Of a stretch of 64,000 bases of DNA, positions 41,353 through 58,605 are shown piece after piece. Location of the stretch: the NCBI RefSeq assembly GCF_000349325.1, contig NC_020504.1, positions 2,576,053 through 2,640,052 of the forward strand. Reading direction: 5' to 3'. The stretch is from Streptomyces davaonensis JCM 4913. Lineage in GTDB: Bacteria; Actinomycetota; Actinomycetes; Streptomycetales; Streptomycetaceae. The notes under the pieces are model-generated. The model saw only the letters and a list, made by a program, of their open reading frames with translations, was not told the origin of the DNA and searched no databases. A program made the translations under genes and the position numbers. Within the stretch, counting starts at the first letter, position 1. Each line of letters opens with the position of its first letter.

Positions 41353-42531
41353 TCAGGTCCCTCCGCGGGTCGCGCTGTGCGGCAGGGGGCGGAAGCCGTT
41401 GAAGCCCTGGGTCAGATAGCTGATGGCGTACGCCCCGGCGGACAGCACCCAGACCGGGTCGCCCGAGGCCACCCCTGCGGGCACCCGCACCCGGGGGTGC
41501 CCGCTCGGGTAGGCGTCGTCACTGTCGCAGGTGGGACCGGCGACGACGGCGGGCACGTACTCGGCGCTGTGCGTGGGGAAGACCAGGCGGTAGCCCAACT
41601 GGTCCATCTCGTACAGGCCGTTGAACTTCCCGCAACTCAAGTAGAGCCAGCGCGCGAGCGTGCCGTCCGGCTGCCGTCGCTCGGTCAGCCGGGACACGTG
41701 CGCCCTGATCGCACCGTGGTCGGCGACCAGGTGCCGGCCCGGCTCCATGACCACCGCCAGGGGTGCCGGGGAGAGGTCCCTGAGCCGCTCGACGCCCTCG
41801 CGGATCACCACGAAGATCTTGTCCAGCGGGGGTTCGAGCACGCTGCCCCGCCGGTCCACGTAGCCGAGCGCGGGCAGTCCGCCGCCGAGGTTGACGTGGT
41901 CCGGCACGATGCCGCGCCGGTGCAGCGCCGTCAGCACCTCGGCCAGCGAGTCGAAGGCGGACCGCCAGGCGGCGGTGGTCATCTGCTGCGAGCCGACGTG
42001 CAGGGAGAGCCCGGCCGGGGTCAGACCCGCCGCCCCCGCGGCCTGAAGCACCTGTACGGCGTCCTGCCCCGAGCAGCCGAACTTCCGGCTCAGCCCCCAC
42101 AGGGCGCCCTGCCCATCGGTGGCCAGTCGGCAGAACACCCGGGAGCCGGGGGCGTGTTCGGCGATCGCCGTGACGTCCGCCAGGCTGTCGGTGGCGAAGT
42201 CACGGATGCCGAGCCGGTGGGCCTCGGCGATGTCGGTGTCGGACTTGACGGTGTTGCCGTAGTGGATCCGGTCCACGGGCACCCCGGTCCGCAGCGCCGA
42301 CGCGATCTCGCCGGGGCTGGCCGCGTCGAAGCCCGCGCCCCGGTCGGCGAGGCAGGTCAGCACCTCGTCGACCGGGCACGCCTTGACGGCGAAACGGACG
42401 TCGAGGCCGGGCAACTCCCGCACCAGTTCGTCGTATTGGGCCTCGATGCCCACGAGGTCGTACACGACCCGGTCGTCGCTGGCGGCGGCCAGAGCCGCGC
42501 GCAGCCGGGGGCTCAGCCGCTGCCCGCTCAC
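41353..42531 (-). CDS. PLP-dependent decarboxylase, fold type III (DAP/ornithine-like)
   Basis: 392 residues from GTG 42531 (GTGA overlap). Alanine-racemase-like barrel with PLP Lys K50 (RFAVKACP), HYGNTVKSD, SLHVGSQ, NLGGGLP, EPGRHLVAD; C-terminal catalytic Cys in GPTCDSDD. The specificity helix reads REGVERLRDL, not clearly that of any one substrate. It would decarboxylate a diamino acid or related amino acid. Context: a small biosynthetic operon. Confidence 0.88.
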   Translation of the reverse strand: MSGQRLSPRLRAALAAASDDRVVYDLVGIEAQYDELVRELPGLDVRFAVKACPVDEVLTCLADRGAGFDAASPGEIASALRTGVPVDRIHYGNTVKSDTDIAEAHRLGIRDFATDSLADVTAIAEHAPGSRVFCRLATDGQGALWGLSRKFGCSGQDAVQVLQAAGAAGLTPAGLSLHVGSQQMTTAAWRSAFDSLAEVLTALHRRGIVPDHVNLGGGLPALGYVDRRGSVLEPPLDKIFVVIREGVERLRDLSPAPLAVVMEPGRHLVADHGAIRAHVSRLTERRQPDGTLARWLYLSCGKFNGLYEMDQLGYRLVFPTHSAEYVPAVVAGPTCDSDDAYPSGHPRVRVPAGVASGDPVWVLSAGAYAISYLTQGFNGFRPLPHSATRGGT

Positions 42532-43847
42532 GGGGTCGCCCCCGCAAGTCCGGTGTCCCGGCTCGCCCCCACGAGGGGCGCCCAGGCCTCGGTCAGCAGT
42601 GCGAAGTCCTCGATGTCCTGCCGGGCCTCGTCGAGCAACCGCTCGCGGCGCGGCAGCAGCGCCTCGGCGAACTCGGTGTATCTGCCGCCCAGTTGACGAT
42701 AGGCATCGTCGACCCGGTCCAGGCGCCACTCGTTCTCGGTCCGGTCGAGTCCGGTGCTCTCCCGCAGGAGAGCGGCGACCGCGTCGGCGCGGATCTCCTG
42801 GCGGTGGTCGAGGAGAGTGGCTCCGGCCGCGGCCATCCGGTCGTAGACGAAGTTGAAGTAGAGCATGGACAGCAGGAACTTCACGAAGCGTGTCTGGTAG
42901 GCGGCGAACCCGGTGTCCGTGCGCCGTTCCGGGGTGTGGAAGTTCTCGATGTGGCGGTTGTGCAGGACGCCGGGGAGGGTGGCGTCGTGCACCAGGTGGA
43001 TGTGGAAGTAGTCGCTGCCGATCGTGTTCCGGGCCGGCGGCAGCGGCATCCGCTCGTACACCCGGTGCTCGAAGCCGATGTTGCACATGTCCACCCGCAT
43101 CGGGTCGACCAGCGCCAGCCGCGTGACGTCCTCGGTGTACGGGGCGGTTCCGGCGCCGGTGAAGGACTCCGCGACCAGCGCTCGCTTCTGCTCCTCGGTC
43201 CAGTGGCCGGGCGCCCACAGGCTGACGACGTCGTCATAGACGTCCGGGTCGAGCCGACGCATCTCGGCTATGTCCACGGAGAGTTCGCCGATGAAGGAGC
43301 CGCCCACCATCGACACGGGCAGTCCGCCGTAAGCCGGATCCAGGTCCGTGTCCGACACCTCGGCCGCGACCTCGACGGCGCGCCTGCCCAGTGCGGTCAG
43401 TTCGGGATGGACGGGGAAGACCGGGGCGCCGTCCTTGGTCTGGTAACGGGAGTCCGAGTCGCGGCGGTGCACCGAGCGGCAGCCGAGGGCGGCGGCGATC
43501 AGGAAGGCACGGTTGGTGCAGGCGCCGTAGGAGACCTCGGGCGGGAGCATCAGGTCGAGCATCAGGTCCGGCTTGGGGACGCGGGCGCGGTCGATGACGG
43601 TGCGCAGGAAGTCCCGCTGCCGGGTCTCGTCGAGGTGGTGGACGGTGATGTGCGGGTGCGGGGCGAGTGCGGCGACGGTCCGCGCGTGCTCGGCGAAGGT
43701 CGGTTCGTCGCAGGAGTCGAGGATCAGCAGGTGCACCTCGACGCCGAAGTGCCGGACCGCGTAGGCCGCTTCGGCGCCGATCGCCGAGATCATCGGGGAG
43801 CAGGCCCGGTTGGTGGGCAGGACCAGGCAGACGCGGTGCCGGTTCAC
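42528..43847 (-). CDS. DUF6271-like protein, glycosyltransferase-like fold
   Basis: 439 residues. N-terminus VCLVLPTNRACSPMISAIGAE, then CRSVHRRDSDSRYQ (a DxD-like motif) and VDPMRVDMCNIGFEHRVYERMP. The opening strands and DSD motif suggest a GT-A-like nucleotide-sugar fold; I relate it to DUF6271 from memory. No experimental function known to me. Coupled to both neighbours (overlaps of 4 nt), so it is integral to the operon. Confidence 0.65.
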   Translation of the reverse strand: MNRHRVCLVLPTNRACSPMISAIGAEAAYAVRHFGVEVHLLILDSCDEPTFAEHARTVAALAPHPHITVHHLDETRQRDFLRTVIDRARVPKPDLMLDLMLPPEVSYGACTNRAFLIAAALGCRSVHRRDSDSRYQTKDGAPVFPVHPELTALGRRAVEVAAEVSDTDLDPAYGGLPVSMVGGSFIGELSVDIAEMRRLDPDVYDDVVSLWAPGHWTEEQKRALVAESFTGAGTAPYTEDVTRLALVDPMRVDMCNIGFEHRVYERMPLPPARNTIGSDYFHIHLVHDATLPGVLHNRHIENFHTPERRTDTGFAAYQTRFVKFLLSMLYFNFVYDRMAAAGATLLDHRQEIRADAVAALLRESTGLDRTENEWRLDRVDDAYRQLGGRYTEFAEALLPRRERLLDEARQDIEDFALLTEAWAPLVGASRDTGLAGATP

Positions 43848-44860
43848 TGCGCGCCCCAGGAGTCCAGGCCCAGCACCTTGCGGCCCAAGCCGGTCAGTTC
43901 GGCGGCGCCGTAGCGGAGGGATTCGTGCCGGGCGGCGTCGCCGAGCAGGGTGCCGTTCCAGTCGGGGGTGCTGAGGGTGCGCCAGGAGTCGATCCGCGAG
44001 CGCCTCAGCTCTTCGTGTTCCTCCAGCGCGGGCATCATCGAGAGGTACTGGACCGCGCGGGCGCCGCTGCCGGAGTTGGGGGCCACGCCGTGCGCCAGCA
44101 GCCCGTTGAAGATCAGCAGATCACCGGCGTGGAGGTCGGGCCGCACCAGGGGGAACTCCCTGCGGTCGACGGCGGGCCGGATGGGATCGCGCCCCTCCGG
44201 CTGCTCCACCCGCCACCGGTCGAACTGCCGGAACAGCTCCGGGCAGCACTGGAACCCGCCCAGTTCGGGCTCGGTGTCGTTGAGCGCGATGATGCCCTGG
44301 ACGCGCTGGGGCAGCACCTCCAGTGTGGTGTCGACGTCCCAGTGGAGCTCGATGTCGAAGCCCTGCTCGGTGGGTTCGATCAGGGAGCGCGAACGGTTCT
44401 TGATGTTGGGCGGGTTGAGGTTCAGCCGGTCCAGGGTGGTCCACAGCTCCTCGCAGTCCCAGATGTCGACGAACGCGTCGTGGACCCGATGATTCTGGCG
44501 GCTGTCCCAGATGAGCTGGTGGTGGTACGCCTCGACGAAGCCGTAGACGAACAGGTCGCGGTCCAGGTCGGAGCGGAACTCCCGTTCCTCGTACCAGGTT
44601 TCGGGGCGCTCGGGGTCGAGGCCCTGGAAGTCCCAGGCGAACTCCAGCAAGGCGCTCGCGGCTTCGGGGGAGATCGCCTCACGGACGACGACATAGCCGT
44701 ACGTCTGCCAGAAGGCGAAGTCCTCCTCGGAGAGCACGCGCAGGGGGTGGGACTTCTCGATTCGACGCAGGGGGGTGGGGGTGAGGTAGGTCTCGCCGTC
44801 GGCGCTGAAGTACGGGCGGTTCGATGCCGCGCGGTGCAGACGCTGGTCAGGGATGGGCAT
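43844..44860 (-). CDS. Fe(II)/2-oxoglutarate-dependent dioxygenase (phytanoyl-CoA hydroxylase family)
   Basis: 338 residues. Iron ligands H173-x-D175 (ELHWDVDTT) and H257 (GLLAHGVAP), 2-oxoglutarate Arg R268 (GARAVQY). Probably hydroxylates an amino acid or small metabolite. First gene of the leftward operon, divergent from the GntR gene; the dre-like palindrome is 46 nt upstream. Complete active-site set, so likely catalytic. Confidence 0.88.
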   Translation of the reverse strand: MPIPDQRLHRAASNRPYFSADGETYLTPTPLRRIEKSHPLRVLSEEDFAFWQTYGYVVVREAISPEAASALLEFAWDFQGLDPERPETWYEEREFRSDLDRDLFVYGFVEAYHHQLIWDSRQNHRVHDAFVDIWDCEELWTTLDRLNLNPPNIKNRSRSLIEPTEQGFDIELHWDVDTTLEVLPQRVQGIIALNDTEPELGGFQCCPELFRQFDRWRVEQPEGRDPIRPAVDRREFPLVRPDLHAGDLLIFNGLLAHGVAPNSGSGARAVQYLSMMPALEEHEELRRSRIDSWRTLSTPDWNGTLLGDAARHESLRYGAAELTGLGRKVLGLDSWGAQ

Positions 44861-45765: not shown

Positions 45766-46197
45766 TTAGCGGAGGGCATCCGCGCTCCCCTCCCCCAGGA
45801 TGCGGCGGCGGGTCCTCGCCAGCGCCTCCGGGTCGGCGCGGTCCACGTACCAGGGGCGGTTCAGACGGTCGGAGTCCTCCCGCGGGACCAGGTGGACGTG
45901 CAGGTGGAAGACGTCCTGCCAGCCCGCGGGGCGGTTCGCCTGGAACAGGGTCAGGCCGTCGGGCGTCAGTACGTCGTCGAGGACCGCGGCCATGCGGTGG
46001 ACGGTGCGCATCACCGCCGCCGCGTCGTCCTCGGAGATCTCCCAGATGTCCCCCGCGTGCGCGCGGGGGATGACGAGGGTGTGGCCCTCCATCACGGCCG
46101 TGTTGTCGAGGAAGGCCACGGTCCGCTCGTCCTCGAAGAGGATCTCCGCGTGCAGCCGGCCCGCCACGATGTCGCAGAACACGCACTCGGACGCCAT
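45766..46197 (-). CDS. HIT-family hydrolase
   Basis: 143 residues. CVFCDIVAGRL at the start (a C-x2-C zinc-type pair) and HIT triad VFHLHVHLVP. HIT proteins hydrolyse or transfer nucleotidyl groups (AMP-amine, dinucleotides). Last gene of the nine-gene operon, 1 nt after cutC. It might remove an AMP- or nucleotide-linked group formed in the pathway, which is inference. Confidence 0.9.
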   Translation of the reverse strand: MASECVFCDIVAGRLHAEILFEDERTVAFLDNTAVMEGHTLVIPRAHAGDIWEISEDDAAAVMRTVHRMAAVLDDVLTPDGLTLFQANRPAGWQDVFHLHVHLVPREDSDRLNRPWYVDRADPEALARTRRRILGEGSADALR

Positions 46198-46198
46198 G

Positions 46199-46906
46199 TC
46201 AGCCCCCGTCCTTGCGGGCGGCGGCGGCGATCAGCTCGCGCCAGCGGCGCACCGCGGCCGGGTCGACCGGGCTGTCCCAGCCCCGGTGCCGCACCGAGGT
46301 GCCGACGTGGAAGGCGTCGACGCCCCGGGCGCGCAGCGCGGGCACGTGCTCGGCGCCGAGTCCCCCGCCCGCCATGACGGCCACGGTGTGGCCCGGCCGG
46401 CCCTGGCGGTCCGCCTCCGCGAGCAGGGTGGGCAGACCGTCTGCGACACCGGCGACGCTGCCCGCGGTCAGCAGGGTGTCCAGGCCGGGCAGTCCTTCGA
46501 TGGCGTACCGCAGCGCCGTCCGGTCGGCCGCGTGGTCCACGGCCCGGTGGAACGTCCAGCGGCCGCCCGGCACCGCGTCGAGCAGGGCGCGGACGGCGGG
46601 CAGGTCCGGTGCGCCGTCCGCGGTGAGGAAGCCGAGGACGAACTCCTCGGCGCCCGCCGCCCGCAGCGCCGCGGCGGCGGCGCGCAGGGCGTCGAGGTCG
46701 GCGACCTGGAAGCCGCCCTTGTCGCGCAGCATGACCCGGATCGGCACGGTGACGGCGTCCCGGGTGCGGACGAACTCCGCGAGCTCGGGGGTCATTCCGT
46801 CGGCGTCCATGTCGGCCGCCAGCTCCAGCCGGTGGGCGCCGCCCGCGACGGCCGCGCGCGCCTCCTCGGCGGAGGTGACGACGACTTCGAGGATCGCCTC
46901 GCCCAT
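46199..46906 (-). CDS. cutC: CutC-family protein
   Basis: 235 residues, TIM-barrel. Family motifs: LEVVVTSAEEARAAVAGGAHRLEL, DMDADGMTPELAE, FHRAVDH, GLDTLLTAGS, VMAGGGLGAEHV. CutC was named for copper homeostasis, but its true activity is unclear. Here it lies in an apparent biosynthetic operon, 3 nt after the HAD gene, so a role as a pathway enzyme should be considered. Confidence 0.9.
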   Translation of the reverse strand: MGEAILEVVVTSAEEARAAVAGGAHRLELAADMDADGMTPELAEFVRTRDAVTVPIRVMLRDKGGFQVADLDALRAAAAALRAAGAEEFVLGFLTADGAPDLPAVRALLDAVPGGRWTFHRAVDHAADRTALRYAIEGLPGLDTLLTAGSVAGVADGLPTLLAEADRQGRPGHTVAVMAGGGLGAEHVPALRARGVDAFHVGTSVRHRGWDSPVDPAAVRRWRELIAAAARKDGG

Positions 46907-47604: not shown

Positions 47605-48702
47605 TCACCGCACCTGGGCGGAGAGGGCGGCAAGGTCGCGTGCGGTCCTGGAGAGCGGAAAGCGCGCCGCGTTGCGGAATCCGGACCGGCGCAGGCCCTC
47701 CAGCGCGCCGGGGTCGTCCCGCAGCCCGGTCAGCTCGGCCGGCGCCCGCTGAGGATCGGCGAGGAGATCGAGGGGCAGCGCCGAGTCGCCCAGCGCGTCC
47801 CGCAGCCCCGGCACCGGCTGATAGGCCACCGGCAGCCCGCAGGCCTGCGCCTCCACGGCCACCAGACCGAACGCCTCCAGCTTCGCGGACGGCACCACAA
47901 GCAGATCGTGCTCGGCGAACGCGGCCCACAGCTCCCGGCGGCTCAGCCACCCCAGATGCCGTACGGCCGACAGGTCCCGTTCCCTGGCCAGCCGCCGGAA
48001 CTCGGCCACCGGCGCGGCCATGCTGAGCCGCACACCCGGTACCCCCGAGAGCGCGGCGACCAGTTCGGCGGCGCCCTTCTCCGCGGTGAGGCGGCCGGCG
48101 TAGAGGACCCGGAGCGGCCCGCCGCCCCGGGGAGTGCGTACGGGTGGTTCGGCCAGCAGGGCGTCGGGGATGCCCCAGGGGATGTGGACGATCCGGCCGC
48201 TGTCCGTCTCCGGGGCCACTCGGCGCAGTTGGTCGGCCATCCCGGCGGTCGGCACCACCAGGGAGCGGGCCGCCTCGACCGCCTCCCGCAGCACCGCGCC
48301 CTGGGTCTCGTACTCGGCGGCGAACAGCAGGTCCGTGCCGTGCACCAGACCGATGGCGGGCTGCTTGGGGTAGCCCCGCAGCAGCGCCGGGGTGGCGCCG
48401 AAGGCGAGGTGCTGGAGGTGGACGACGTCCTGCTCGGTGTGCGGGAAGCGGGCGGTGACCGCGTCCGTGAGCCGGTCGACGTAGGCCCAGAAGCCCTCGC
48501 CGCTGAGCTGTTTGCCGGGGACGTCCAGCAGGGCGAGGGTGCTCTCGTCCGGCGGTGGGGAGCCGTCTTCCGGAACCAGCATGAACGCGCTCGCCTTCAG
48601 CGGGCCGTCCGGGTCCAGATACAGGTCCTTGAGCAGTTCGACGCTGCCGCCCGGACTGCCCCAGGGCAGATCGAGTCCGGTCAGTGTCCGGGGTGCGCTC
48701 AC
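47605..48702 (-). CDS. Family 4 glycosyltransferase
   Basis: 365 residues from GTG 48702 (GTGA overlap with the deaminase paralogue). GT-B: N-terminal DLPWGSPGGSVELL, C-terminal VLYAGRLTAEKGAAEL and EAFGLVAVEAQACGLPV. Inverting/retaining class GT4 (retaining). Part of the same operon as P450, methyltransferase and N-oxygenase, so likely glycosylates a small molecule. Confidence 0.88.
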   Translation of the reverse strand: MSAPRTLTGLDLPWGSPGGSVELLKDLYLDPDGPLKASAFMLVPEDGSPPPDESTLALLDVPGKQLSGEGFWAYVDRLTDAVTARFPHTEQDVVHLQHLAFGATPALLRGYPKQPAIGLVHGTDLLFAAEYETQGAVLREAVEAARSLVVPTAGMADQLRRVAPETDSGRIVHIPWGIPDALLAEPPVRTPRGGGPLRVLYAGRLTAEKGAAELVAALSGVPGVRLSMAAPVAEFRRLARERDLSAVRHLGWLSRRELWAAFAEHDLLVVPSAKLEAFGLVAVEAQACGLPVAYQPVPGLRDALGDSALPLDLLADPQRAPAELTGLRDDPGALEGLRRSGFRNAARFPLSRTARDLAALSAQVR

Positions 48703-49226
48703 CGCAGCTCCTCGTACAGCCGCGAGATGTCGATCCCGCTGGTCCGGGTGTACTTGCGGCCCAGGTTCTGGTAGCTGGACATCGCGCCCTCGGCGACCAG
48801 GAACACGATCTTCCCGAAGGGCATGCGGGGATAGACCCGCACCGGCCGCGCCACCCGGATCTCCAGGGTCCAGCGGATGGCGTGGCCCACGTGTCCGAGC
48901 GGGGCGGAGACATGGACCCAGACGCCGAGCGCGCCGAGGCTGCGGTCGCCGTTGATCATCTGGGCGTAGCGCTCGGAGTGGGTGCGCTCATGGGTGACGC
49001 CGAGATAGAGCCGGCCCGGCCGCAGCACCATGCCCTCGGGCGGGATGACGTGCTCGGTGACACGGGTCGCGGCGGCGGCGTCCAGTTCGTCGCCCTCGCA
49101 GACCCGGATGCGGTTGCCGAGGTGCCAGTCGTAGGCGTTGGGCGAGATCCGCTCCGGATCGAAGGGCTCGATGACGATGTCGCCGCGTTCCACGGCGGTG
49201 GCGATGGCCTCACGGGTCAGGATCAT
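48699..49226 (-). CDS. dCTP-deaminase-like paralogue A (keeps catalytic Glu, lacks Ser/Arg)
   Basis: 175 residues, dUTPase/Dcd fold. Ungapped alignment with E. coli Dcd: active-site Glu138 is present as E122 (WTLEIRV), but Ser111 is R95 and Arg115 is A99 (GDRSLGALG). Thus unable to form a normal Dcd site alone. It is adjacent to paralogue B with the opposite losses. Start ATG 49226 overlaps paralogue B stop (ATGA). The operon suggests a nucleotide-derived natural product or a recruited fold. Confidence 0.87.
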   Translation of the reverse strand: MILTREAIATAVERGDIVIEPFDPERISPNAYDWHLGNRIRVCEGDELDAAAATRVTEHVIPPEGMVLRPGRLYLGVTHERTHSERYAQMINGDRSLGALGVWVHVSAPLGHVGHAIRWTLEIRVARPVRVYPRMPFGKIVFLVAEGAMSSYQNLGRKYTRTSGIDISRLYEELR

Positions 49227-49753
49227 GTCGTCGGCACCGCCACGTCCTTCCAGTAGCGGGACTCCTGGGGGCCCGCCGAGGACTGGTACTTGCCGCGGTA
49301 GAGGTCGACCTCGCCGAGCGACACGAAGAACATGATCTGGCCGATCTTCATCCCCGGGTACACCCGCAGCGGCTGGACCGGGGACAGCATCAGCGTCCAC
49401 TGGCCGTGGAAGCCGATGTCGCCGATGGGCGCCGTGATCTCCACGAACAGCCCGAGCCGGCCGACCGAGGACCGCCCGAAGAGCAGTGGCACGTACTGGT
49501 CGGAGCCGACCTGTTCCACGGTGTGCCCGAGATAGAGCTGGTCGGGCCTGAGGACATAGCCGTCCTCCCCGATGATGATCTCCCGGGTGGCGTTGGGCCG
49601 GTAGGGGTCGATGACGTCGTCGGTGTAGGTCAGCAGCCTGTCGCCGAGGCAGACGTTGTAGCTGTTGGGGTTCACCTGGGCCGGGTTGAACGGCGAGATG
49701 ACGATCCGGCCGTCGCTCGCGGCCTCGGTGATCTCGGGGCCGGTGAGGATCAT
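49223..49753 (-). CDS. dCTP-deaminase-like paralogue B (keeps Ser/Arg, lacks catalytic Glu)
   Basis: 176 residues, same fold. Motif 2 is intact, GRSSVGRLG with S95 and R99 (E. coli Ser111, Arg115). The catalytic Glu position is M122 (WTLMLSPV). The two paralogues align without gaps through this region and are otherwise similar (MILT start; RPxxLYLG; VYPxM). Overlaps both neighbours by 4 nt. In the dUTPase/Dcd family motif 2 and motif 3 of one active site come from different subunits, so A and B could build a composite site. Confidence 0.87.
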   Translation of the reverse strand: MILTGPEITEAASDGRIVISPFNPAQVNPNSYNVCLGDRLLTYTDDVIDPYRPNATREIIIGEDGYVLRPDQLYLGHTVEQVGSDQYVPLLFGRSSVGRLGLFVEITAPIGDIGFHGQWTLMLSPVQPLRVYPGMKIGQIMFFVSLGEVDLYRGKYQSSAGPQESRYWKDVAVPTT

Positions 49754-50772
49754 GCGGCCCTCCCCGTGGCGCCCGCGGCGCCCTCGAAGTCGAAGTCCAC
49801 CCGGTCCGCCACGTCCAGTTCGCGCAGCATGCGCAGGATCCCGGAGAAGTCGGTGACGAGCAGCTCCGCCTGGCCGCCGCGGGAGTCCTCGATGATGTCC
49901 CGGGCCTTGGGGATGCCGGCGAACCGAAGGACCTTCAGCCACCAGTCGAAGTCCTCGGCGCAGAAGGCGTTGATCCCGGCGGGCAGCGACGCCACGAAGA
50001 AGTCCTGTTGCCGCCGCGAGAGGTTGACGAAGACGTCCTTCATCACCTCGACCATGACCGGGCCGTGCGCCGACTCGTCGCGGGCGTGCAGCCTCGCGAT
50101 CGTGGAGTGCAGCGGCTGCACGGTGGTGTCCCGGGCCATCAGGTCGAGGAAGGCGTTCACGCTCACCTCGCCGACCGTGGTCCACAGCAGCAGGAGCAGA
50201 TCCGACTCCCAAGCCTCGGCGCAGGCGTCCTGCGCCTGGTACAGCAGCCGGTTGGTGACGGGGTGCCCGCAGTCGGGCTCGGCGGTGATCCCCCGGGCCT
50301 CCCGGGTGCGCTGCATGCCGAGCATGTGCATGTACGTGTGCCACACCTCGTCGATGTGGGACTGCCGCACGATCTCTTTCACCTCGAACCGGTCCACCCC
50401 GGGGTACACGGCATGGCCGAGCTTCTCGAAGGTGGGGTTGACGACGAACTCCTCGGCGGCCACGACGCGTTCGTTGTACGCGATCCAGCCCAGGGTGTTC
50501 ACCGTGCGCCGCTTGTCCTCCGGGGCGTCCCGGAAGTCGGGGTGCTCGCCGAACGGCATCAGCGCGACGGGGTAGTCGAGCAGTTCGGGGTCGTACTCCC
50601 CGGCTCCGGTGACCTTGTCCATGTCCGTGCGCACGGTGGCCCGGCGGGGCCAGGCCGCCGCCAGCCGGCGGAGCGTGCCGGGGCCGACCTGGCCGGTGGC
50701 TTCCTCGATGGTTCCCAACTCTTGCGTTCCTCCGTTGTCTTGCCGCGTCACTCGGCGGTCCTGCCGCGTCAT
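49750..50772 (-). CDS. AurF-like diiron N-oxygenase
   Basis: 340 residues from ATG 50772 (ATGA overlap). Complete carboxylate-bridged diiron set: E107/E108 (AAEEFV), E142-x2-H145 (DEVWH), E202 (VGEVSV), H229-x3-E233-x2-H236 (HARDESAH). AurF oxidises arylamines to nitroarenes; relatives make N-hydroxy or N-oxide groups. Nearby starts at GTG 50751 and TTG in GAGTTGGG also exist. Predicts a nitro, nitroso or hydroxylamine step in the pathway. Confidence 0.88.
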   Translation of the reverse strand: MTRQDRRVTRQDNGGTQELGTIEEATGQVGPGTLRRLAAAWPRRATVRTDMDKVTGAGEYDPELLDYPVALMPFGEHPDFRDAPEDKRRTVNTLGWIAYNERVVAAEEFVVNPTFEKLGHAVYPGVDRFEVKEIVRQSHIDEVWHTYMHMLGMQRTREARGITAEPDCGHPVTNRLLYQAQDACAEAWESDLLLLLWTTVGEVSVNAFLDLMARDTTVQPLHSTIARLHARDESAHGPVMVEVMKDVFVNLSRRQQDFFVASLPAGINAFCAEDFDWWLKVLRFAGIPKARDIIEDSRGGQAELLVTDFSGILRMLRELDVADRVDFDFEGAAGATGRAA

Positions 50773-51815
50773 CGGGCCGGTCCGGCGGTGGGGCGGGCCT
50801 CGATGACCCGGTAACCGCTGAAGCCGAGCGGCGCGCCGATCTCGGTGAGCTCCAGGCCGGCGGCGTCGAGGAGTTCGGTGAACTCCCGCTCGGTGCGCTC
50901 CCGGCCGTGGGTCAGGACCATCAGGTTGAGGTCGCTGACGGTGAGGAAGGGGTCGGTCGTGGTGTCCGCGACGGGCGGTGCGACGACCTCGACGATCAGC
51001 ACCCGGGCCGTGTCCGCCATGACCCGGCGGCAGTTGCGCAGGATCGCCACACAGCGCTCGTCGTCCCAGTCGTGCAGCACGCTCTTGATCACATAGCGGT
51101 CGCCGCCCTCGGGTACGGCGGCGAGAAAGTCCTGGGCCACGAGTTCGCACCGGTCCGCGACGCCCGCGGCGGCGAGCGTCGTGGGGGCTCCGGCCACGCC
51201 CACCGGGGTGTCGACCAGGACCCCGCGCAGCTGGGGGTGGTGTCCGAGCACTCCGGCGAGCAGGGCGCCGTTGCCGCCGCCGACGTCCACGACGGTCTTG
51301 ACGTCGGCGAAGTCGTAGGACCGCGCCAGCGCCTGGGCCTCCGCGCCGCCGCTGACCGCCATCGCGGCGTGGAACTCCGCGCCCAGCTCCGGATCGGCCG
51401 CGAACAGGTCGAAGACCGAGCCTCCGGTGACCGATTCCACGGACGGCCGTCCGGTGCGCAGGCACTCGGTGAACCGTCCCCAGGAGGCCCAGACGGCCTC
51501 GCTGAAGTAGGGCATCAGCATGGGGCGGACGGAGCCGGGCACGTCGGAGCGGAGCGGTTCGCCGGCCGGTGCCAGCCGGAAGCCGTCCTCGCCCCGCTGT
51601 TCCACCACGCCGAGGGTGGCCAGGCCCCGCAGCAGCCTGCGCAGGGCCGGGGCCCGGGTTCCGGTGCGCTCGGCCAACTCCTCGGTGGTCAGGGGCTGTT
51701 CGGCGAGCAGGTCGGGGAGCCGCAGCCGGGCCGCGGCGTGGATCATCTGGGCGGGTATGAAACCGAAGGCGAGGCGGTAGAGGTTGGCTGCCGCCATCGG
51801 GTCGATCATGGTCAC
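50769..51815 (-). CDS. SAM-dependent O-methyltransferase (acetylserotonin OMT-like)
   Basis: 348 residues from GTG 51815, GTGA overlap with the P450; ATG 51809 is the alternative. N-terminal dimerisation winged helix (ELAERTGTRAPALRRLLRGL), SAM motif TVVDVGGGNGALLAGVL, catalytic His in KSVLHDWDDERC. Typical of polyketide and aromatic tailoring. Confidence 0.9.
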   Translation of the reverse strand: MTMIDPMAAANLYRLAFGFIPAQMIHAAARLRLPDLLAEQPLTTEELAERTGTRAPALRRLLRGLATLGVVEQRGEDGFRLAPAGEPLRSDVPGSVRPMLMPYFSEAVWASWGRFTECLRTGRPSVESVTGGSVFDLFAADPELGAEFHAAMAVSGGAEAQALARSYDFADVKTVVDVGGGNGALLAGVLGHHPQLRGVLVDTPVGVAGAPTTLAAAGVADRCELVAQDFLAAVPEGGDRYVIKSVLHDWDDERCVAILRNCRRVMADTARVLIVEVVAPPVADTTTDPFLTVSDLNLMVLTHGRERTEREFTELLDAAGLELTEIGAPLGFSGYRVIEARPTAGPAR

Positions 51816-53053
51816 GTGCCACTCGTTTCCGGACGAACAGGATCGAAAGAGACGGGAAGTGCGGTCAGTCCGCACAGGATGCTGATCTGGCGCCAGCGCA
51901 ACTCATCGGGCGGGATGGCCAGTTGAAGGCCGTCGCAGCGGCCGAGCAGCGCTCCGAGTGCCGTCGCGGCGAGCATCCGGGCCAGCGGCGCGCCGAGGCA
52001 GTAGTGGATGCCGTGCCCGAAGGCCAGATGGGGGTTGGGGTCGCGCCGGACGTCCAGGGTGTCGGAGTCCCGGAAGGCCTCAGGGTCCCGATTGGCCAGG
52101 GACAGCCCGATGTTGACGACCGAGCCGCGGGGGATCACCGTCCCGCCGATGACAACGTCGTCTACCGCCACGCGCAGCGAGGACTGCCCCGCGGAACCTT
52201 CGTACCGCAGCAGTTCCTCCACGGCGGAGGCCAGCAGCGTCGGGTCCTCGCGCACCATGACGAGCTGGTCCGGGTGGAGCAGCAGGGTGAGCAGTCCGTT
52301 GCCGATCAGATTGGTGGTCGTCTCATGCCCGGCGACCAGCAACAGCACGGCCAGGCCGATGAGTTCGTCGTCGTCGAGGCTGCTGTCGCGTTCCTGCGCC
52401 ACGATGAGGGCGCTGAGCAGATCGGGCTGCTCGTCGGGCGCCAGGTCCGGTCGTACGGCGGCGCGCTTGGCGGCGACAAGCCGGGTGAAGTAGGCGCGCA
52501 GGCGGCGCGAGCGCTCCTCGCGGGTGCGGGGTCCGGCGGCGGTGGACAGGGTGCGCGCGGCCCAGGTGCGGAAGGTCTCCCGGTCCCGGGTGGGCACCCC
52601 GAGCAGCTCGCAGATGATCAGCACGGGCAGCGGGAAGGCGAGGTCGGCGATGATGTCCGCCCGCCCGGTGGGCGCGATGGCGTCGAGGAGTTCACCGGTG
52701 ACGGACTCGGCCCTCGGCGCCAGCGCGTTGATCCGGCGGCGGGTGAAGCCGTGCGAGACGAGTCCGCGCAGCCGGGTGTGGTGCGGCGGGTCGTTGTTGG
52801 CCATCGGGGAGTAGGCGTTCGCGGTGTCGACCGCGTGGCCGAGACGTCGCGGGTCGTTGGAGAGCCCGGGGTCGCGCAGGGCCTGGCGGGCCTCGGCGTA
52901 CCGGGAGATCAGCCAGTACGTGAAGCCGCTCTCCTCCCGCACCAGGCGGACCGGTGGTTCGGCGCGCATCCGCAGGTGGACCGCGTCCGGTTCCGTGAGC
53001 AGCCGATACGGGCTGAAATCGAGCAACGGTTCGAGTTCCGGCTGAGTCTGCAC
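51812..53053 (-). CDS. Cytochrome P450
   Basis: 413 residues, class I bacterial P450. I-helix AGHETT (241-246), ExxR E280-R283, heme loop FGHGIHYCLG with ligand C352. No ferredoxin gene beside it. First gene of a nine-gene operon; divergent from the LuxR regulator, with a dre-like site in the 283-nt gap. Presumably hydroxylates the scaffold. Confidence 0.93.
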   Translation of the reverse strand: MQTQPELEPLLDFSPYRLLTEPDAVHLRMRAEPPVRLVREESGFTYWLISRYAEARQALRDPGLSNDPRRLGHAVDTANAYSPMANNDPPHHTRLRGLVSHGFTRRRINALAPRAESVTGELLDAIAPTGRADIIADLAFPLPVLIICELLGVPTRDRETFRTWAARTLSTAAGPRTREERSRRLRAYFTRLVAAKRAAVRPDLAPDEQPDLLSALIVAQERDSSLDDDELIGLAVLLLVAGHETTTNLIGNGLLTLLLHPDQLVMVREDPTLLASAVEELLRYEGSAGQSSLRVAVDDVVIGGTVIPRGSVVNIGLSLANRDPEAFRDSDTLDVRRDPNPHLAFGHGIHYCLGAPLARMLAATALGALLGRCDGLQLAIPPDELRWRQISILCGLTALPVSFDPVRPETSGT

Positions 53054-54040: not shown

Positions 54041-54087
54041 CTGAGGGCGGTACCGGCGGCCGCGACCACCGCCGGCACCGCCCTCAG
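54041..54087. terminator. Long bidirectional hairpin between LuxR and FAD-oxidoreductase genes
   Basis: 19-nt arms (54041-54059 and 54069-54087) pair at 18 of 19 positions around a 9-nt loop; left arm begins CTGAGGGCGG, right arm ends CCGCCCTCAG. It overlaps the last codons and stop of the oxidoreductase gene (54084-54086). Terminates both convergent transcripts. Confidence 0.8.
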
Positions 54088-55256
54088 CCCACGGCCGGAA
54101 GCAGTTCGGCCGCGTCGACATGGCTCACCGCCACCGACAGGAAGGCGCTCGCGGATGCCTGATCGCTCGCTATCCATCGGGTGAACTCCAGCCGCTGCTC
54201 GGTCACTTCGAGTTGTGCGGTGTCCAGTGCGGTCCGGTAGCGCGGCTCCATCAGCCGGCGGTGGCCCCCGGCGTAGCGGTCCAGCGCGGCCGCCAGAACC
54301 CGGTCGTCGTGCAGTCCGGCGCCGACCGACTCGGCCAGCAGCGCCGCCTGTTCGAAGGCGTCGCTGATGCCCGTCCCGGTGATGGAGTCCTTGTGGCATC
54401 CGGCGTCCCCGACCAGGACCCAGCCAGGACCCGTGACCGTACGGAGGTGGTTGAGCTGGCTGCCGGTGCCCCGCAGCCGCTCCACCCGCCGTGCCGACAG
54501 GGCGCGTTCGGCCAGTTCGGGGGCGGTGGTCCGGATGGCCTCCCGATAGGCGCGGTCCGCGTCCCGCCGGACGTCGGCGAACTCCGACTGGGGGAAGTAG
54601 GCGGCCACCAGGGTCAGTTCGTCATGGGTGCCGACCACGCCGATGAGCCGTCCGGTCCGCTCGTACACCTCGAACTGTGCGGGCAGCCCTTCCCAGTAGC
54701 CATAGTAGACACAGGTGCGCGGCGCGTCCTGCCGCTGCACCGCCGCCCCGCACAGGCCCGCCAGCGTCGAGCGCATCCCGTCGGCGCCCACCACGAGACG
54801 GGCCCGCACCTCGCTCTCGCCCCGGCCGGTCCCACAGCGCACCCCGGTCACCCGGTCGCCCTCAGTGAGCACTCCGGTGACGGCGCACCCCTGCCGGAAC
54901 TCGGCCCCGGCCGCCACGGCCGCATCGATCAGCATGCTGTCCAGCACGTACCGGCGCGGCGCGTACACCGCATCGATGCCCTCCTCCACGGGGACCGGCC
55001 CGGCGAGCCGGACGTCCTGGAGCGCGTAGGAGATCCGGCGCACCGGCGGACACCCGGTCGCCACCAGCCGGTCCAGCAGCCCCCAGCGCCTGAGCAGCCG
55101 CAGTCCGGGCCGGTGGATGTGCTGGGTGGAGAGGGTGTCGCTGGGGAAGGCCGCCCGGTCCAGCAGCAGGACCCGGTACCCGGCCCGCGCGAACAGCAGC
55201 GCGGTCGAGGCACCGGCACTGCGCGCACCGGCCACCACCACGTCGTAGGACTCCAT
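54084..55256 (-). CDS. FAD-dependent oxidoreductase (halogenase/monooxygenase class)
   Basis: 390 residues. FAD-binding VVVAGARSAGASTALLFARAG, DG motif VVGADGMRSTL, GD motif VLVGDAGCHKDSITGTGI. PHBH/geranylgeranyl-reductase class A flavoprotein fold. No WxWxIP halogenase motif, so halogenation is unlikely. Last gene of the TOMM operon, 21 nt after SagB1. Tailoring oxidation of the product is inferred. Confidence 0.88.
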   Translation of the reverse strand: MESYDVVVAGARSAGASTALLFARAGYRVLLLDRAAFPSDTLSTQHIHRPGLRLLRRWGLLDRLVATGCPPVRRISYALQDVRLAGPVPVEEGIDAVYAPRRYVLDSMLIDAAVAAGAEFRQGCAVTGVLTEGDRVTGVRCGTGRGESEVRARLVVGADGMRSTLAGLCGAAVQRQDAPRTCVYYGYWEGLPAQFEVYERTGRLIGVVGTHDELTLVAAYFPQSEFADVRRDADRAYREAIRTTAPELAERALSARRVERLRGTGSQLNHLRTVTGPGWVLVGDAGCHKDSITGTGISDAFEQAALLAESVGAGLHDDRVLAAALDRYAGGHRRLMEPRYRTALDTAQLEVTEQRLEFTRWIASDQASASAFLSVAVSHVDAAELLPAVG

Positions 55257-55277
55257 GAGTTGAGTGCATCCTCCTGT

Positions 55278-56789
55278 TCAGAAACCGGCTCGCAGGGGCA
55301 GGTGCGGATCCGTGCGGTCCGGTGCGCGCGGGCCCACGGTCACCAGCACCAGCGGCTGGAGCGGGCCCGGGGTCAGTCCGAGAGCGGAGCGCAGGCGCTC
55401 CGGGTCGAAGTCGCAGTGCACATGGCTCTCCAGACCGGCGGCCGCGGCGGCCAGCGCGATCCGCTGCGCCGCGGCACCGGCCGCGATGTTCTGCGCCCGG
55501 TACCAGCGGTCCCCGTGGCGCTCGACCCCGGTGCACGGATCGCCGCAGGGCGCCAGGACCGCGGTGGCGGTGCGGCATTCGTCGGCCAGCATGGGGCTCT
55601 TGGCCGCGGCGAGCACGTCCGGTACGGCGTCGGCCCGCCGGGTGCCGATCAGCGCGTGGGCCACGGCGTCGTAGAGGTAGGCGCCGGTCTCCACCTCGGG
55701 GATCCGCTGGACGACGCCGGCGAGTTGGACCGGGATCCCGGCGGCCACCGGTTCGCCCGCGGCGGGGAGCAGGGCGGCGAGCGTCCGCTCGGGCACCGGG
55801 GCCGGGCGGAATCCGTACGCCGTGCGGCGGCCCGGGAAGCCGTCCGTGAGGGCGGAGACGGCGGGGGGCAGGGGGTGGCGGGGGCCGTCGGGGAGCGGCC
55901 ATGAATTGGCCGTGGGGGCGCCGAAGTCCCCCGGTGCGGTGCGGTGGATGGCGGCGTGCAGGGCGGTGGCCTCGGCCAGGGCGGGCAGCTCGGTGATGGG
56001 CATGGGTTCGGGCCGGGCGGCGGGCACTTCGCCGTGCCAGCGCTCGCAGGGCAGTGCGGGCGGGGCGTCCGGCCGGTGCAGGGTGATCACCGCGAACACG
56101 CTCTCCGCGAAGGAGGCGAGGCCGAGGAGTTCGTCCAACGCACCGTCCTCGTAACGCAGATGGACGGTCGCCGTCAGCCCCGTCGCCTCGGCGGCGGCCA
56201 CCGCCTGCGCGGTCGCCACCCCGACGTCGAGGCTCTGGAGGCGGTAGCCGAAGACTCCGTACTTGGCCATGTTGCGCCACAGCACGCTACTCAGCAGCAG
56301 GACGAACTCCGGGCGCTGGGCCGGTGGTTCGGCGAGCAGGGGTGTGATCAGGTGCCGACCGTCGCCCTCGCGCAGGTTCTCCAGGCTGTGGTGGACGGGG
56401 TCGTAGTGGGAGAGCCCGGCGGGGAGGCCGTCCAGGGCGGGGTGGGCGAGGTAGAGCTCCACGGGATAGCGGGAGCCGGAGGCGGCGGCGGTGCGGCCGG
56501 GCGAGAGGAGCATCCGGCGGGCGGCGGGGCTGCCGAGGCCGAGCGGCATGATGCCGCTCATCCAGCGCATCCGGGTCAGGCCGCCCGCCCGGTGCAGCAG
56601 CCAGGACAGGCGCCGCAGCGGATCCGCGTCCCGAGGCTCCGGACGGTCCGGCAACGGCCGGCGGACCGCCGACGGGTAGCGCTTGTGGACCGGCGGAAGC
56701 CGGAGCGGATCGGCCGCGGGGAGCGCGTCCGGTGGCTGGTGGCCGGAGGCGAGGTACTCCAGGGCGGCGGAGGCGGTCGAGGTGGTCAT
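55278..56789 (-). CDS. SagB-type peptide dehydrogenase 1 (two nitroreductase-like halves)
   Basis: 503 residues from ATG 56789 (ATGA overlap with the small ORF). FMN nitroreductase-like SagB family: SGSRYPVELYLAH, LLLSSVLWRNMAKYGVFGYR, then a second degenerate half with VETGAYLYDAVAHAL and AGAAAQRIALAAAAAGLESH. Oxidises thiazolines/oxazolines to azoles in TOMM peptides. Pair with SagB2. Confidence 0.9.
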   Translation of the reverse strand: MTTSTASAALEYLASGHQPPDALPAADPLRLPPVHKRYPSAVRRPLPDRPEPRDADPLRRLSWLLHRAGGLTRMRWMSGIMPLGLGSPAARRMLLSPGRTAAASGSRYPVELYLAHPALDGLPAGLSHYDPVHHSLENLREGDGRHLITPLLAEPPAQRPEFVLLLSSVLWRNMAKYGVFGYRLQSLDVGVATAQAVAAAEATGLTATVHLRYEDGALDELLGLASFAESVFAVITLHRPDAPPALPCERWHGEVPAARPEPMPITELPALAEATALHAAIHRTAPGDFGAPTANSWPLPDGPRHPLPPAVSALTDGFPGRRTAYGFRPAPVPERTLAALLPAAGEPVAAGIPVQLAGVVQRIPEVETGAYLYDAVAHALIGTRRADAVPDVLAAAKSPMLADECRTATAVLAPCGDPCTGVERHGDRWYRAQNIAAGAAAQRIALAAAAAGLESHVHCDFDPERLRSALGLTPGPLQPLVLVTVGPRAPDRTDPHLPLRAGF

Positions 56790-56998
56790 GAAGCCTCCTG
56801 TGAGGGACGCGGGGCGGTCGAAGTGGTCACGCAACTCGCCCCGTCGCGACGCAAGGCGGCCGAAGAAGCCACACGGCCAGCCCCCTCGCGACCCAAGGCA
56901 GCCGAAACAGCCACACGGCCAGCCCCAACACGACCCCAGGCAGCCGAGGGTGACGCGTGGCCCGCCCCCTCGCGGCGCAAGGCAGTCAACGAGGTCAC
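56786..56998 (-). CDS. Small repetitive ORF coupled between the two SagB genes (candidate peptide)
   Basis: 70 codons. GTG 56998 overlaps the SagB2 stop (GTGA) and its stop overlaps SagB1 start (ATGA), exactly as real operon genes do here. It encodes four imperfect 14-15-residue units of the form SAAL-x-REGAGR-V-A, ending in SCVTTST, a cluster of residues that YcaO enzymes can cyclise. Against it: codon third positions are only about two-thirds G/C, well below neighbours, and the region could be a non-coding tandem repeat. No match to a known precursor leader. Not in the usual ORF call because of its size. Confidence 0.35.
   Translation of the reverse strand: MTSLTALRREGAGHASPSAAWGRVGAGRVAVSAALGREGAGRVASSAALRRDGASCVTTSTAPRPSQEAS
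56790..56994. repeat. Imperfect 42-45-bp tandem repeats between SagB genes
   Basis: About four degenerate units, recognisable by the plus-strand motif AAGGC(A/G)GCCGA followed by CCACACGGCCAGCCCC. The unit is a multiple of three throughout. The repeats fill the gap between the two dehydrogenase genes and underlie the peptide repeats of the small ORF. Confidence 0.75.
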
Positions 56999-58605
56999 GC
57001 GGCCCTCCAGTGCGGGACGGGCAGCAGGCAGCGCTCGTCGGCGCCGGGGGTGCCGAGCGCGATCTGGAAGACCGGCTCGTGGCCCGGCGGCAGGCGCAGG
57101 GCGCGGGCCAGCGGTCCGGCGGCGTACCCGTTGTGGATCCGCGCGGCCAGCCCGGCCCCGGCGCTCAGCACGCACAGCCGCTGCGCGACCACCCCCGCCT
57201 CGTGATGCAGCACCCTGAACCCCCGGTCACCGAAGGTTACTTGGGCCGGGCGAGCGGGCACCGACAGGAACACCACGGCGTTCACCGTCCGGTAGTCGAT
57301 GTTGGCCGCCTCCAGACCGAGGTCCATGGGCCGGGCGGGACCGAGGTGCCGCAACCCGTGCGGGGTCACCTCGTGCAATCCGTTCTCGACCCCCGTGAGG
57401 TCGACCGCCCACAGGTGGGCCGTGACGGGCGGCGCGGAACCCTCCGGCACGGCGTCCGAGGCATACGGCGCGAAGGCCGGCAGGACCGCGTCGAGCACGG
57501 CCTCGACCGGCACCGGCCGGGGCTTCGGGTGGAACGCCGGGGCACCCGAGGTACGCCGGCGCAGCAAGTCGGCGAGTTCTCCGGCCGGGACGGGCGCGGC
57601 GGTCGGGGGCTCCTCGTAAGGCAGCCGGGCGAAGGACTCGGTGTCGGTGAGCCGTGCGGCGGCATCCAGCTCGACGAGGTCCGCGAGCGCGCCGACGCCG
57701 GTGGCGGGAGGCGCCGGGCGGCCGACCGGAGGGAGCACCGACAACTCCGCCTCGGGGCCGGGAGAAGCCGGCCGGCCGACCCCAGGCGGCACCGACAACT
57801 CCGCCTCGGAGCACTGCCGTACGGCTTCCCCCCGCCCCGCGGACAGCGGCAGCACCGCCGCGACGCTCTCCTCCGGACGCGCGACACCGAGCAGCCGCTC
57901 CAGCACCCCGTCGAGGAACTGGTGCCGCAACTGCCCCCGTAGGCCGAGCGCGCCCGCGACCATCAGCGCGTTCCCGGCCACCAGACCCGTCTCCTGCGCG
58001 CACAGCCGGTAGGCGTAGGCGCCGTACCGGAAGGCCGTACGCCAGAAGACCGTGGACAGCAGCAGCGCGCCCACCGCGTCGTCGAGGTCCGTGCCGAGCG
58101 CCGCGCCGAGCAGGGCGCGGAAGTCCCCGGCCCGCAGCAGGACCAGTGTGTGGTGTGCCGGGTCGTAGGCGTAGACACCCGCGGGGAGTCCGTCGTGGCC
58201 CGGGGTCCACAGATAGGTCTCGACCGGCGCGAAGCAGCGGGCTGAGGGGACGGCGCGGTGGTAGGGCCAGCGGGCGGTGGGGCCGAACTCGGTGCGCAGG
58301 ACGCCGCAGGTGTAGTGGAGGAGCGCCGAGTGGAGGGCCGCGGTCGGCACGACCCGTCCCCCGGCACTCTCTCCGAGACCCCGGCTCAGCGGGCCGAGCG
58401 TCCGGGGCGGCGACGGCAGCGGATACCGGGGCAGCGAGCCGTGGCGGGTGAACCGCTCCGGTTCCCGCGGCCCGCCCTCCCGCCCTCCCGGCCCCTGCCC
58501 GATCAGGCCGGCGTAGTCGTGCAGGGAGCGGCGCCAGTACCGTGCGCCGGGCGGCTCGGGGGCCCGGTCGAGCCCTTCGATGGCGGTCATCCGCGCAGTC
58601 CTCAC
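56995..58605 (-). CDS. SagB-type peptide dehydrogenase 2
   Basis: 536 residues from GTG 58605 (GTGA overlap with YcaO). SagB family: YPLPSPPRTLGPLSRGLGES, ALHSALLHYTCGVLRTE, LLLSTVFWRTAFRYGAYAYR; second half with ANIDYRTVNAVVFLSV and VVAQRLCVLSAGAGLAARIH. Between halves is a Pro/Val repeat (AELSVPPGVGRPASPG, AELSVLPPVGRPAPP). Only distantly like SagB1, so the two may act as a heteromer or one may be structural. Confidence 0.88.
   Translation of the reverse strand: MRTARMTAIEGLDRAPEPPGARYWRRSLHDYAGLIGQGPGGREGGPREPERFTRHGSLPRYPLPSPPRTLGPLSRGLGESAGGRVVPTAALHSALLHYTCGVLRTEFGPTARWPYHRAVPSARCFAPVETYLWTPGHDGLPAGVYAYDPAHHTLVLLRAGDFRALLGAALGTDLDDAVGALLLSTVFWRTAFRYGAYAYRLCAQETGLVAGNALMVAGALGLRGQLRHQFLDGVLERLLGVARPEESVAAVLPLSAGRGEAVRQCSEAELSVPPGVGRPASPGPEAELSVLPPVGRPAPPATGVGALADLVELDAAARLTDTESFARLPYEEPPTAAPVPAGELADLLRRRTSGAPAFHPKPRPVPVEAVLDAVLPAFAPYASDAVPEGSAPPVTAHLWAVDLTGVENGLHEVTPHGLRHLGPARPMDLGLEAANIDYRTVNAVVFLSVPARPAQVTFGDRGFRVLHHEAGVVAQRLCVLSAGAGLAARIHNGYAAGPLARALRLPPGHEPVFQIALGTPGADERCLLPVPHWRAA

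Follow-up and report, generated by a model that had tools for sequence, protein, structure and literature searches.

Why do two adjacent genes of the dCTP deaminase (Dcd) family stand side by side in Streptomyces davaonensis JCM 4913, when neither of them holds a full set of active-site residues? The preliminary description of this locus proposed that the two proteins form an obligate heteromer, each supplying what the other has lost. We consider this proposal in terms of the residues themselves, their occurrence in other genomes, the genes that surround the pair and the reaction that it may carry out. The window, here and below, is the whole stretch of 64,000 nucleotides that was analysed.

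Two Dcd-family genes and their active-site residues

We named the two proteins alpha and beta, corresponding to paralogues A and B of the preliminary description. The open reading frames of the beta and alpha genes overlap by 4 bases. The features of the pair are the following:

48699..49226, minus strand: alpha, a Dcd-family protein of 175 aa that keeps E122, with R95, A99 and H112 replacing the motif-2 Ser/Arg and the Asp128 equivalent
49223..49753, minus strand: beta, a Dcd-family protein of 176 aa in which S95, R99, D112 and the GKYQ arm are retained, with M122 replacing the Glu
48861..48863, minus strand: codon of alpha E122 (E. coli E138 position), invariant in 60/60 alphas
49469..49471, minus strand: codon of beta S95 (E. 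coli S111 position), invariant in 59/59 betas, one partial beta being excluded
49388..49390, minus strand: codon of beta M122, where the catalytic Glu is replaced; M or Q in 60/60 betas

Both proteins match the Pfam model DCD (PF22769, cut-off 27), alpha with 91.6 bits (6.9e-26) and beta with 144 bits (5.2e-42). With the NCBIfam model TIGR02274 (dCTP deaminase equivalog), beta scores 98.4 bits and alpha 66.6 bits, against a curated cut-off of 92.8. The dUTP nucleotidohydrolase model NF002598 (cut-off 130 bits) gives only 20.3 bits for beta and no match for alpha. The single-chain predicted folds have mean pLDDT values of 90.3 and 92.9, with DCD-DUT and Dcd as top structure matches, and the solved structures nearest to the two models are mostly bifunctional DCD-DUTs.

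When aligned with HMMER to E. coli Dcd (1xs1), without gaps across the key region, alpha has R95 at S111, A99 at R115, H112 at D128, H115 at W131 and E122 at E138. As for beta, M122 falls on the mutated glutamate position of the E145Q variant 3gf0, and S95/R99 fall on the conserved Ser/Arg of 2qxx. At E. coli positions 111/115/128/138 the residues are R/A/H/E in alpha and S/R/D/M in beta, and the equivalents of Ser111, Arg115 and Glu138 never occur in one chain (R/A/E against S/R/M). The HMMER and structure-sequence alignments bear out the earlier reading of R95/A99/E122 in A and S95/R99/M122 in B. They add a fourth split position that it did not include, the Asp128 equivalent, which is H in alpha and D in beta.

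Besides the pair, the same genome holds a housekeeping Dcd of the same superfamily with all four residues (L001), and a protein (L004) that, judging by its motifs, we take to be an ordinary trimeric dUTPase.

The residue partition in other genomes

A search with alpha over 394 genomes of the family, with up to 8 candidates scored per genome, found one or more pairs in at least 56 of them. Several genomes had been fetched twice, and removal of duplicates left 60 pairs. They fall into class I (40 pairs, the window type), class II (8 pairs, members about 7-10 kb apart) and class III (12 pairs, members adjacent).

The Glu is present and the Asp absent in all 60 alphas; in all 60 betas the Glu is the one residue missing, with Ser, Arg and Asp in place. 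Read at positions 111/115/128/138, class I alphas are RAHE (26), RSHE (12), RTHE (1) or HAHE (1), with SRDM in all 40 betas. Class II has RTHE in 8 alphas and SRDQ in 8 betas. In class III, alphas are SRNE (5), SRQE (4) or SRHE (3), and betas SRDQ (11) or SRDM (1). The alphas of this last class thus keep S, R and E without the Asp in 12/12 cases, and the split of motif 2 is incomplete there. No chain of any of the 60 pairs has S, R, D and E together.

The preliminary description had suggested searching genomes for co-occurring pairs with the same swaps. Glu without Asp in alpha, against Ser, Arg and Asp without Glu in beta, is the partition in 60/60 deduplicated pairs and in 11/11 further pair loci, one of which (L132) has the same alpha core as L018. 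The partition is also present in three plasmid pairs, one plasmid each from Rhizobium etli, Nocardiopsis eucommiae and a Streptomyces, which are the pairs whose residues were read among 15 plasmid records with a match. The Rhizobium etli pair (L133), of class III type, has methyltransferase, NUDIX, metallophosphoesterase and HAD genes adjoining. The neighbourhood on a Rhizobium sullae plasmid (L136) is similar, L133 being the one of these two whose residues were read.

Homologues found singly carry all four residues in 36/36 cases (35 distinct). These singles comprise 32 loci (Bacteroidota, Planctomycetota, Patescibacteria, Bacillota and others) and four canonical Streptomycetaceae Dcds; one weak aberrant match (L077) was excluded from the counts. 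They rule out a split that is general among Dcds, while the 60 pairs rule out a pair unique to this window. The partition of residues is beyond chance, and many gene clusters of antibiotic type have it.

In terms of conservation, 17 of 176 columns are invariant in the alphas (n=60), including A108 and W119-T120-L121-E122, with none inside motif-2 positions 94-99. In the betas that are long enough (n=59), 28 columns are invariant, including S95, R99, D112, G154-K155-Y156-Q157, P162, S165 and D170. Pairwise identity falls as low as 31% for alpha and 38% for beta, with alpha E122 and beta S95/R99 still invariant. Class III alphas, which have kept S and R, have lost the Lys and Gln of the arm. Across all classes, the surviving set is motif 2 and the arm in beta, and the hairpin and the Glu in alpha.

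Regarding gene order, most pairs are translationally coupled. The class I beta stands 5' of alpha, and of the 39 pairs measured 36 overlap by 4 bases and 3 by 1 base. The order is reversed in class III, where half of the pairs (6/12) have a 4-base overlap. The distant class II members are uncoupled. Among the matches listed for the 394 genomes, every non-partial one with E < 1e-16 has a partner, that of G293 having an interrupted frame. In this genome one beta frame is interrupted beside an intact alpha (L022/L083), and there is a second, intact pair (L084).

Widespread occurrence of one member alone had been named at the outset as evidence that would speak against a heteromer. Only two alphas were without a beta within the stretch fetched, both of them partial (L120, L121), and widespread intact lone alphas are ruled out among the matches listed.

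The host genome measures 9.56 Mb, and the closest named pair loci are from Streptomyces. An evenly drawn phylum sample of 396 genomes, searched at a threshold of 1e-22 that can miss class III, gave two genomes with the pair, one of them that of the window. The pair thus appears to be mainly one of Streptomycetaceae, and its occurrences outside them are scattered.

As for origin, the ancestor would be one enzyme in which all four residues were present. Duplication would have been followed by loss of the Glu from beta and of the Asp from alpha, with further alpha losses of the motif-2 Ser/Arg in classes I and II and of the arm in class III. In a tree of 81 chosen rows, the 66 pair members (66/66) form one clade (100/99), in which all the alphas (98/89) and all the betas (93/82) each group together. 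This division speaks for one ancient duplication that the three cluster classes share by descent. The program attached a long-branch warning to the place in this tree where class I and class II alphas meet. A tree made without the motif and arm columns (111 columns) did not resolve the duplication, nor did it reject a single alpha clade (AU p 0.35), so the statement of a single duplication rests on the full 81-row tree.

Gene surroundings of the pair

The genes around the pair in the window, apart from the more distant sets mentioned below, are:

45766..46197, minus strand: HIT-family protein; tblastn match in 10/10 of L035-L044 and 0/20 of L078-L097, and the family is present in four class III loci
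46199..46906, minus strand: CutC-family protein; among the loci clustered, the family is otherwise only in L035-L037
46910..47578, minus strand: HAD-family hydrolase
47605..48702, minus strand: GT4 glycosyltransferase, with a 4-base overlap with alpha; tblastn match in 30/30 class I loci
49750..50751, minus strand: AurF-type diiron N-oxygenase-like protein, with a 4-base overlap with beta; accessory (window, L035-L037, L042, L044)
50769..51815, minus strand: O-methyltransferase-like protein; accessory (window, L035-L037)
51812..53053, minus strand: cytochrome P450; accessory (window, L035-L037), with the same family in L115

The class I set searched with tblastn consists of 10 named loci (L035-L044) and 20 other loci (L078-L097). 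Neighbour families were mostly typed from one member, and GalU and PIG-L were assigned by reading sequences. The window and L035-L037 share the order AurF, beta, alpha, GT4, HAD, CutC, HIT. The operon in L078-L097 contains, in this order, a MurA-like transferase, a metallophosphoesterase, beta, alpha, GT4 and a beta-lactamase-family hydrolase; the MurA-like and metallophosphoesterase families are present in 20/20, and the GT4 and beta-lactamase-family hydrolase families were called in 19/20. In three of these 20 loci, a canonical four-residue dcd lies about 5.6-6.5 kb from the pair (L089 16966-17538, L096 16625-17197 and L097 16189-16761).

The pair had been placed in an AurF/P450/OMT/glycosyltransferase pathway. 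The glycosyltransferase part of this claim stands, as GT4 is the only gene common throughout the class I loci compared. The rest does not: AurF, OMT and P450 are accessory and were rejected as pathway-defining, with no tblastn match in L038-L041, L043 and L078-L097, and with their families absent from most other pair loci.

Class II betas carry a fused PPDK/PEP-synthase-like domain. In L098 and L103, the beta-type Dcd domain and the PPDK_N / PEP-utiliser domain make up one chain of about 835 aa. Neighbours in this class are HAD-like, phosphodiesterase-like and P-loop kinase-like genes, with a desaturase-like gene in some loci. Some class III loci have kinase-like, cytidine-deaminase-like, GalU-like and GT4 genes, and others have metallophosphoesterase, TauD-like, PIG-L-like, GT4, class II tRNA-synthetase-like and HIT genes. 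Five of them (L105, L107, L109, L116 and L117) share one gene family beside the pair, whose L116 member is cytidine-deaminase-like. HIT, NUDIX and metallophosphoesterase genes recur beside pairs, and in the loci compared the pair genes are mostly in operons with enzyme genes.

Further along the window, an azole-peptide-type set on the minus strand (54084-62457; FAD oxidoreductase, two SagB-like dehydrogenases, YcaO/SagD, ThiF-like) adjoins the P450, OMT, AurF and Dcd genes, and a large part of it is found again next to the pair in L035-L037. A search for a precursor peptide of these genes gave no convincing candidate. On the other side, also on the minus strand, PLP decarboxylase, DUF6271 and PhyH genes (41353-44860) recur in L035. 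With no match in L036 or L037, they may form a separate or variable region.

A candidate composite site and its chemistry

We take the S111/R115 region of Dcd to be motif II and the D128-E138 region to be motif III. The statement in the preliminary description that motifs 2 and 3 of one site come from different subunits agrees with the available text of two sources: in PMC12524310 a single site of a trimeric dUTPase draws its motif III and its motif II from different subunits, and PMC12088426 places Dcd sites between two protomers of the trimer. The shared homotrimeric core has three active sites in intersubunit clefts, according to the available part of PMC4827122.

Because motifs II and III of one dUTPase site come from different subunits, the best reading of the pair is that alpha and beta would form an obligate heteromer whose site would be composite and whose ancestor would be a trimeric dCTP deaminase or DCD-DUT. 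We give this reading a probability of about 65%. Indirect support comes from the complementary and fixed split, the pairing, the translational coupling of most pairs and the conservation in each partner of the half missing from the other; the class III alphas with S and R and the uncoupled class II genes stand against it. One kind of catalytic site would lie at the alpha/beta interface, with motif 2 (S95, R99) and the C-terminal arm (GKYQ) coming from beta, and the base-binding hairpin and the catalytic Glu (E122) from alpha. In the complete type of site, beta motif 2 would stand opposite the alpha Glu; the remaining interfaces would be without the Glu or, in classes I and II, without motif 2. 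D112 is kept in every beta, though the composite site does not need an Asp there, which suggests a second role for beta at other interfaces.

Early in a specialised-metabolite pathway, the heteromer would take a cytosine nucleotide as its substrate, probably CTP, a ribonucleotide, or an intermediate derived from CTP. Later steps would fall to phosphatases, to HIT or NUDIX proteins and to a glycosyltransferase or a methyltransferase. We infer CTP as the substrate, the order of the steps and the chemistry.

Among the clusters seen, an intact CTP synthase gene lies within the cluster only in L042 (class I) and in L103 and L104 (class II). The genomes of these three loci have 2 copies of CTP synthase, against 1 in four others searched, and the second copies are at L042 13854-15452, L103 1270-2961 and L104 1484-3151. 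Position 115 (Asp+3) is F in 35/36 single homologues, and H, A or S in 60/60 alphas. From the spacing, we infer that it corresponds to the hairpin tyrosine to which the deoxyribose selectivity of dUTPases is tied in the available text of PMC12524310. In class III betas the aromatic is lost too (S in 11/12), so the change is not specific to alpha there. A ribonucleotide substrate is suggested by the extra CTP synthase together with the aromatic lost at alpha position 115. The in-cluster CTP synthase could instead be a resistance copy. A short CTP synthase remnant was also seen in another cluster with a Dcd pair (L101 16761-17102), and a Cytophagia MAG has, close to a single Dcd homologue, a CTP synthase 47% identical to that of L042 (L072 8771-10375).

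Deamination is one candidate for the reaction, and chemistry at phosphorus is the other. The invariant alpha Glu speaks for deamination; the class III cytidine-deaminase-like gene and the class II phosphotransfer genes speak for chemistry at phosphorus, and the former disfavours plain deamination as the task. A real heteromer, overlapping with the reading above, that carries out nucleotidyl transfer or pyrophosphohydrolysis on CTP and not base deamination is a serious possibility, if not one that we would bet on. The related dUTPase fold attacks the alpha phosphate. The PPDK/PEP-synthase-like fusion of class II beta points in this direction, as do the P-loop kinase-like, phosphodiesterase-like and HAD-like proteins of these operons, the recurrent HIT, NUDIX and metallophosphoesterase genes, and the cytidine-deaminase-like gene beside the L116 pair with its family in four more class III loci. 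However, dUTPases are not known to need the Dcd Glu, yet alpha has kept this Dcd-specific residue in every pair.

Two separate homotrimers seem improbable. Here beta would be a nucleotide-binding or dUTPase-like phosphohydrolase protein using the S/R, the Asp and the arm, with alpha diverged to some other job. Trimeric dUTPases use a motif III Asp without the Dcd Glu, and the retention of D112 by every beta fits this, as does the predominance of bifunctional DCD-DUTs among the nearest solved structures. Matches to NF002598 exist for the window beta and for the fused L098 protein (34.4 bits), both weak and far below the cut-off. Nonetheless, the matches listed contain no intact alpha without a beta, the two exceptions being partial; alpha and beta conserve complementary halves, and such pairing in several otherwise different clusters is unexpected for two independent jobs.

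Lower still we rate a catalytically dead pair that only binds or sequesters nucleotide, for example in immunity, sensing or regulation: catalytic residues are gone from both alpha and beta, and a single E138A or E138Q change abolishes the activity of E. coli Dcd, but alpha E122 and beta S95 and R99 stay invariant down to the lowest identities, and the genes are mostly in operons with enzyme genes.

For the heteromer with a composite site, several known systems offer comparison. dCTP deaminase (EC 3.5.4.13) and DCD-DUT (1xs1 from E. coli, 2qxx from M. tuberculosis, 1ogh from M. jannaschii, 4xjc from B. halodurans) have the same fold and family as the pair, and each of the four residues is present in alpha or beta. 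Known Dcd enzymes are homotrimers or dimers of trimers (PMC12088426, in the part available), whereas the residues of the pair, as known here from sequence, are divided over two chains. The monomeric herpesvirus dUTPase (EBV type) has a duplicated dUTPase fold whose motif sets have decayed to one composite site, as given in the accessible portion of PMC12524310. Its copies are fused in one chain and form a dUTPase, unlike alpha and beta, which are two genes of the Dcd branch. Finally, the Agrobacterium Dcd 2r9q has 370 residues, about twice the usual Dcd length, and is one long chain against the two here; the comparison is one of length.

That no split Dcd had been described holds among the papers listed in the literature searched, none of which presented a split or heteromeric Dcd or described a Dcd pair in that way. 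Tandem Dcd genes, however, were already in print: phtJ and phtK of the phaseolotoxin cluster are adjacent and both named deoxycytidine triphosphate deaminase in the available text of PMC3927611, which also lists PPDK-like, desaturase-like, HAD and aminotransferase genes. In its gene names this cluster resembles the class II clusters. In the part of PMC11278893 available, phtJ and phtK are given no function.

A wider picture, in which a split Dcd family of Actinomycetota and Rhizobium plasmids has been retuned to CTP and opens nucleotide-derived natural-product pathways, the phaseolotoxin-like class included, by a reaction that is not plain dCTP deamination and with a complete site only in the heteromer, is put forward tentatively and is on balance unlikely as a whole. 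If true, genes recorded as dCTP deaminase or deoxycytidine triphosphate deaminase, and read as nucleotide housekeeping, would be paired subunits of a specialised enzyme. The pair could then guide genome mining for natural products based on nucleotides. It would also be a clean natural case of an oligomeric enzyme whose one active site is divided between paralogues. Lastly, the pair offers a testable way into phtJ and phtK.
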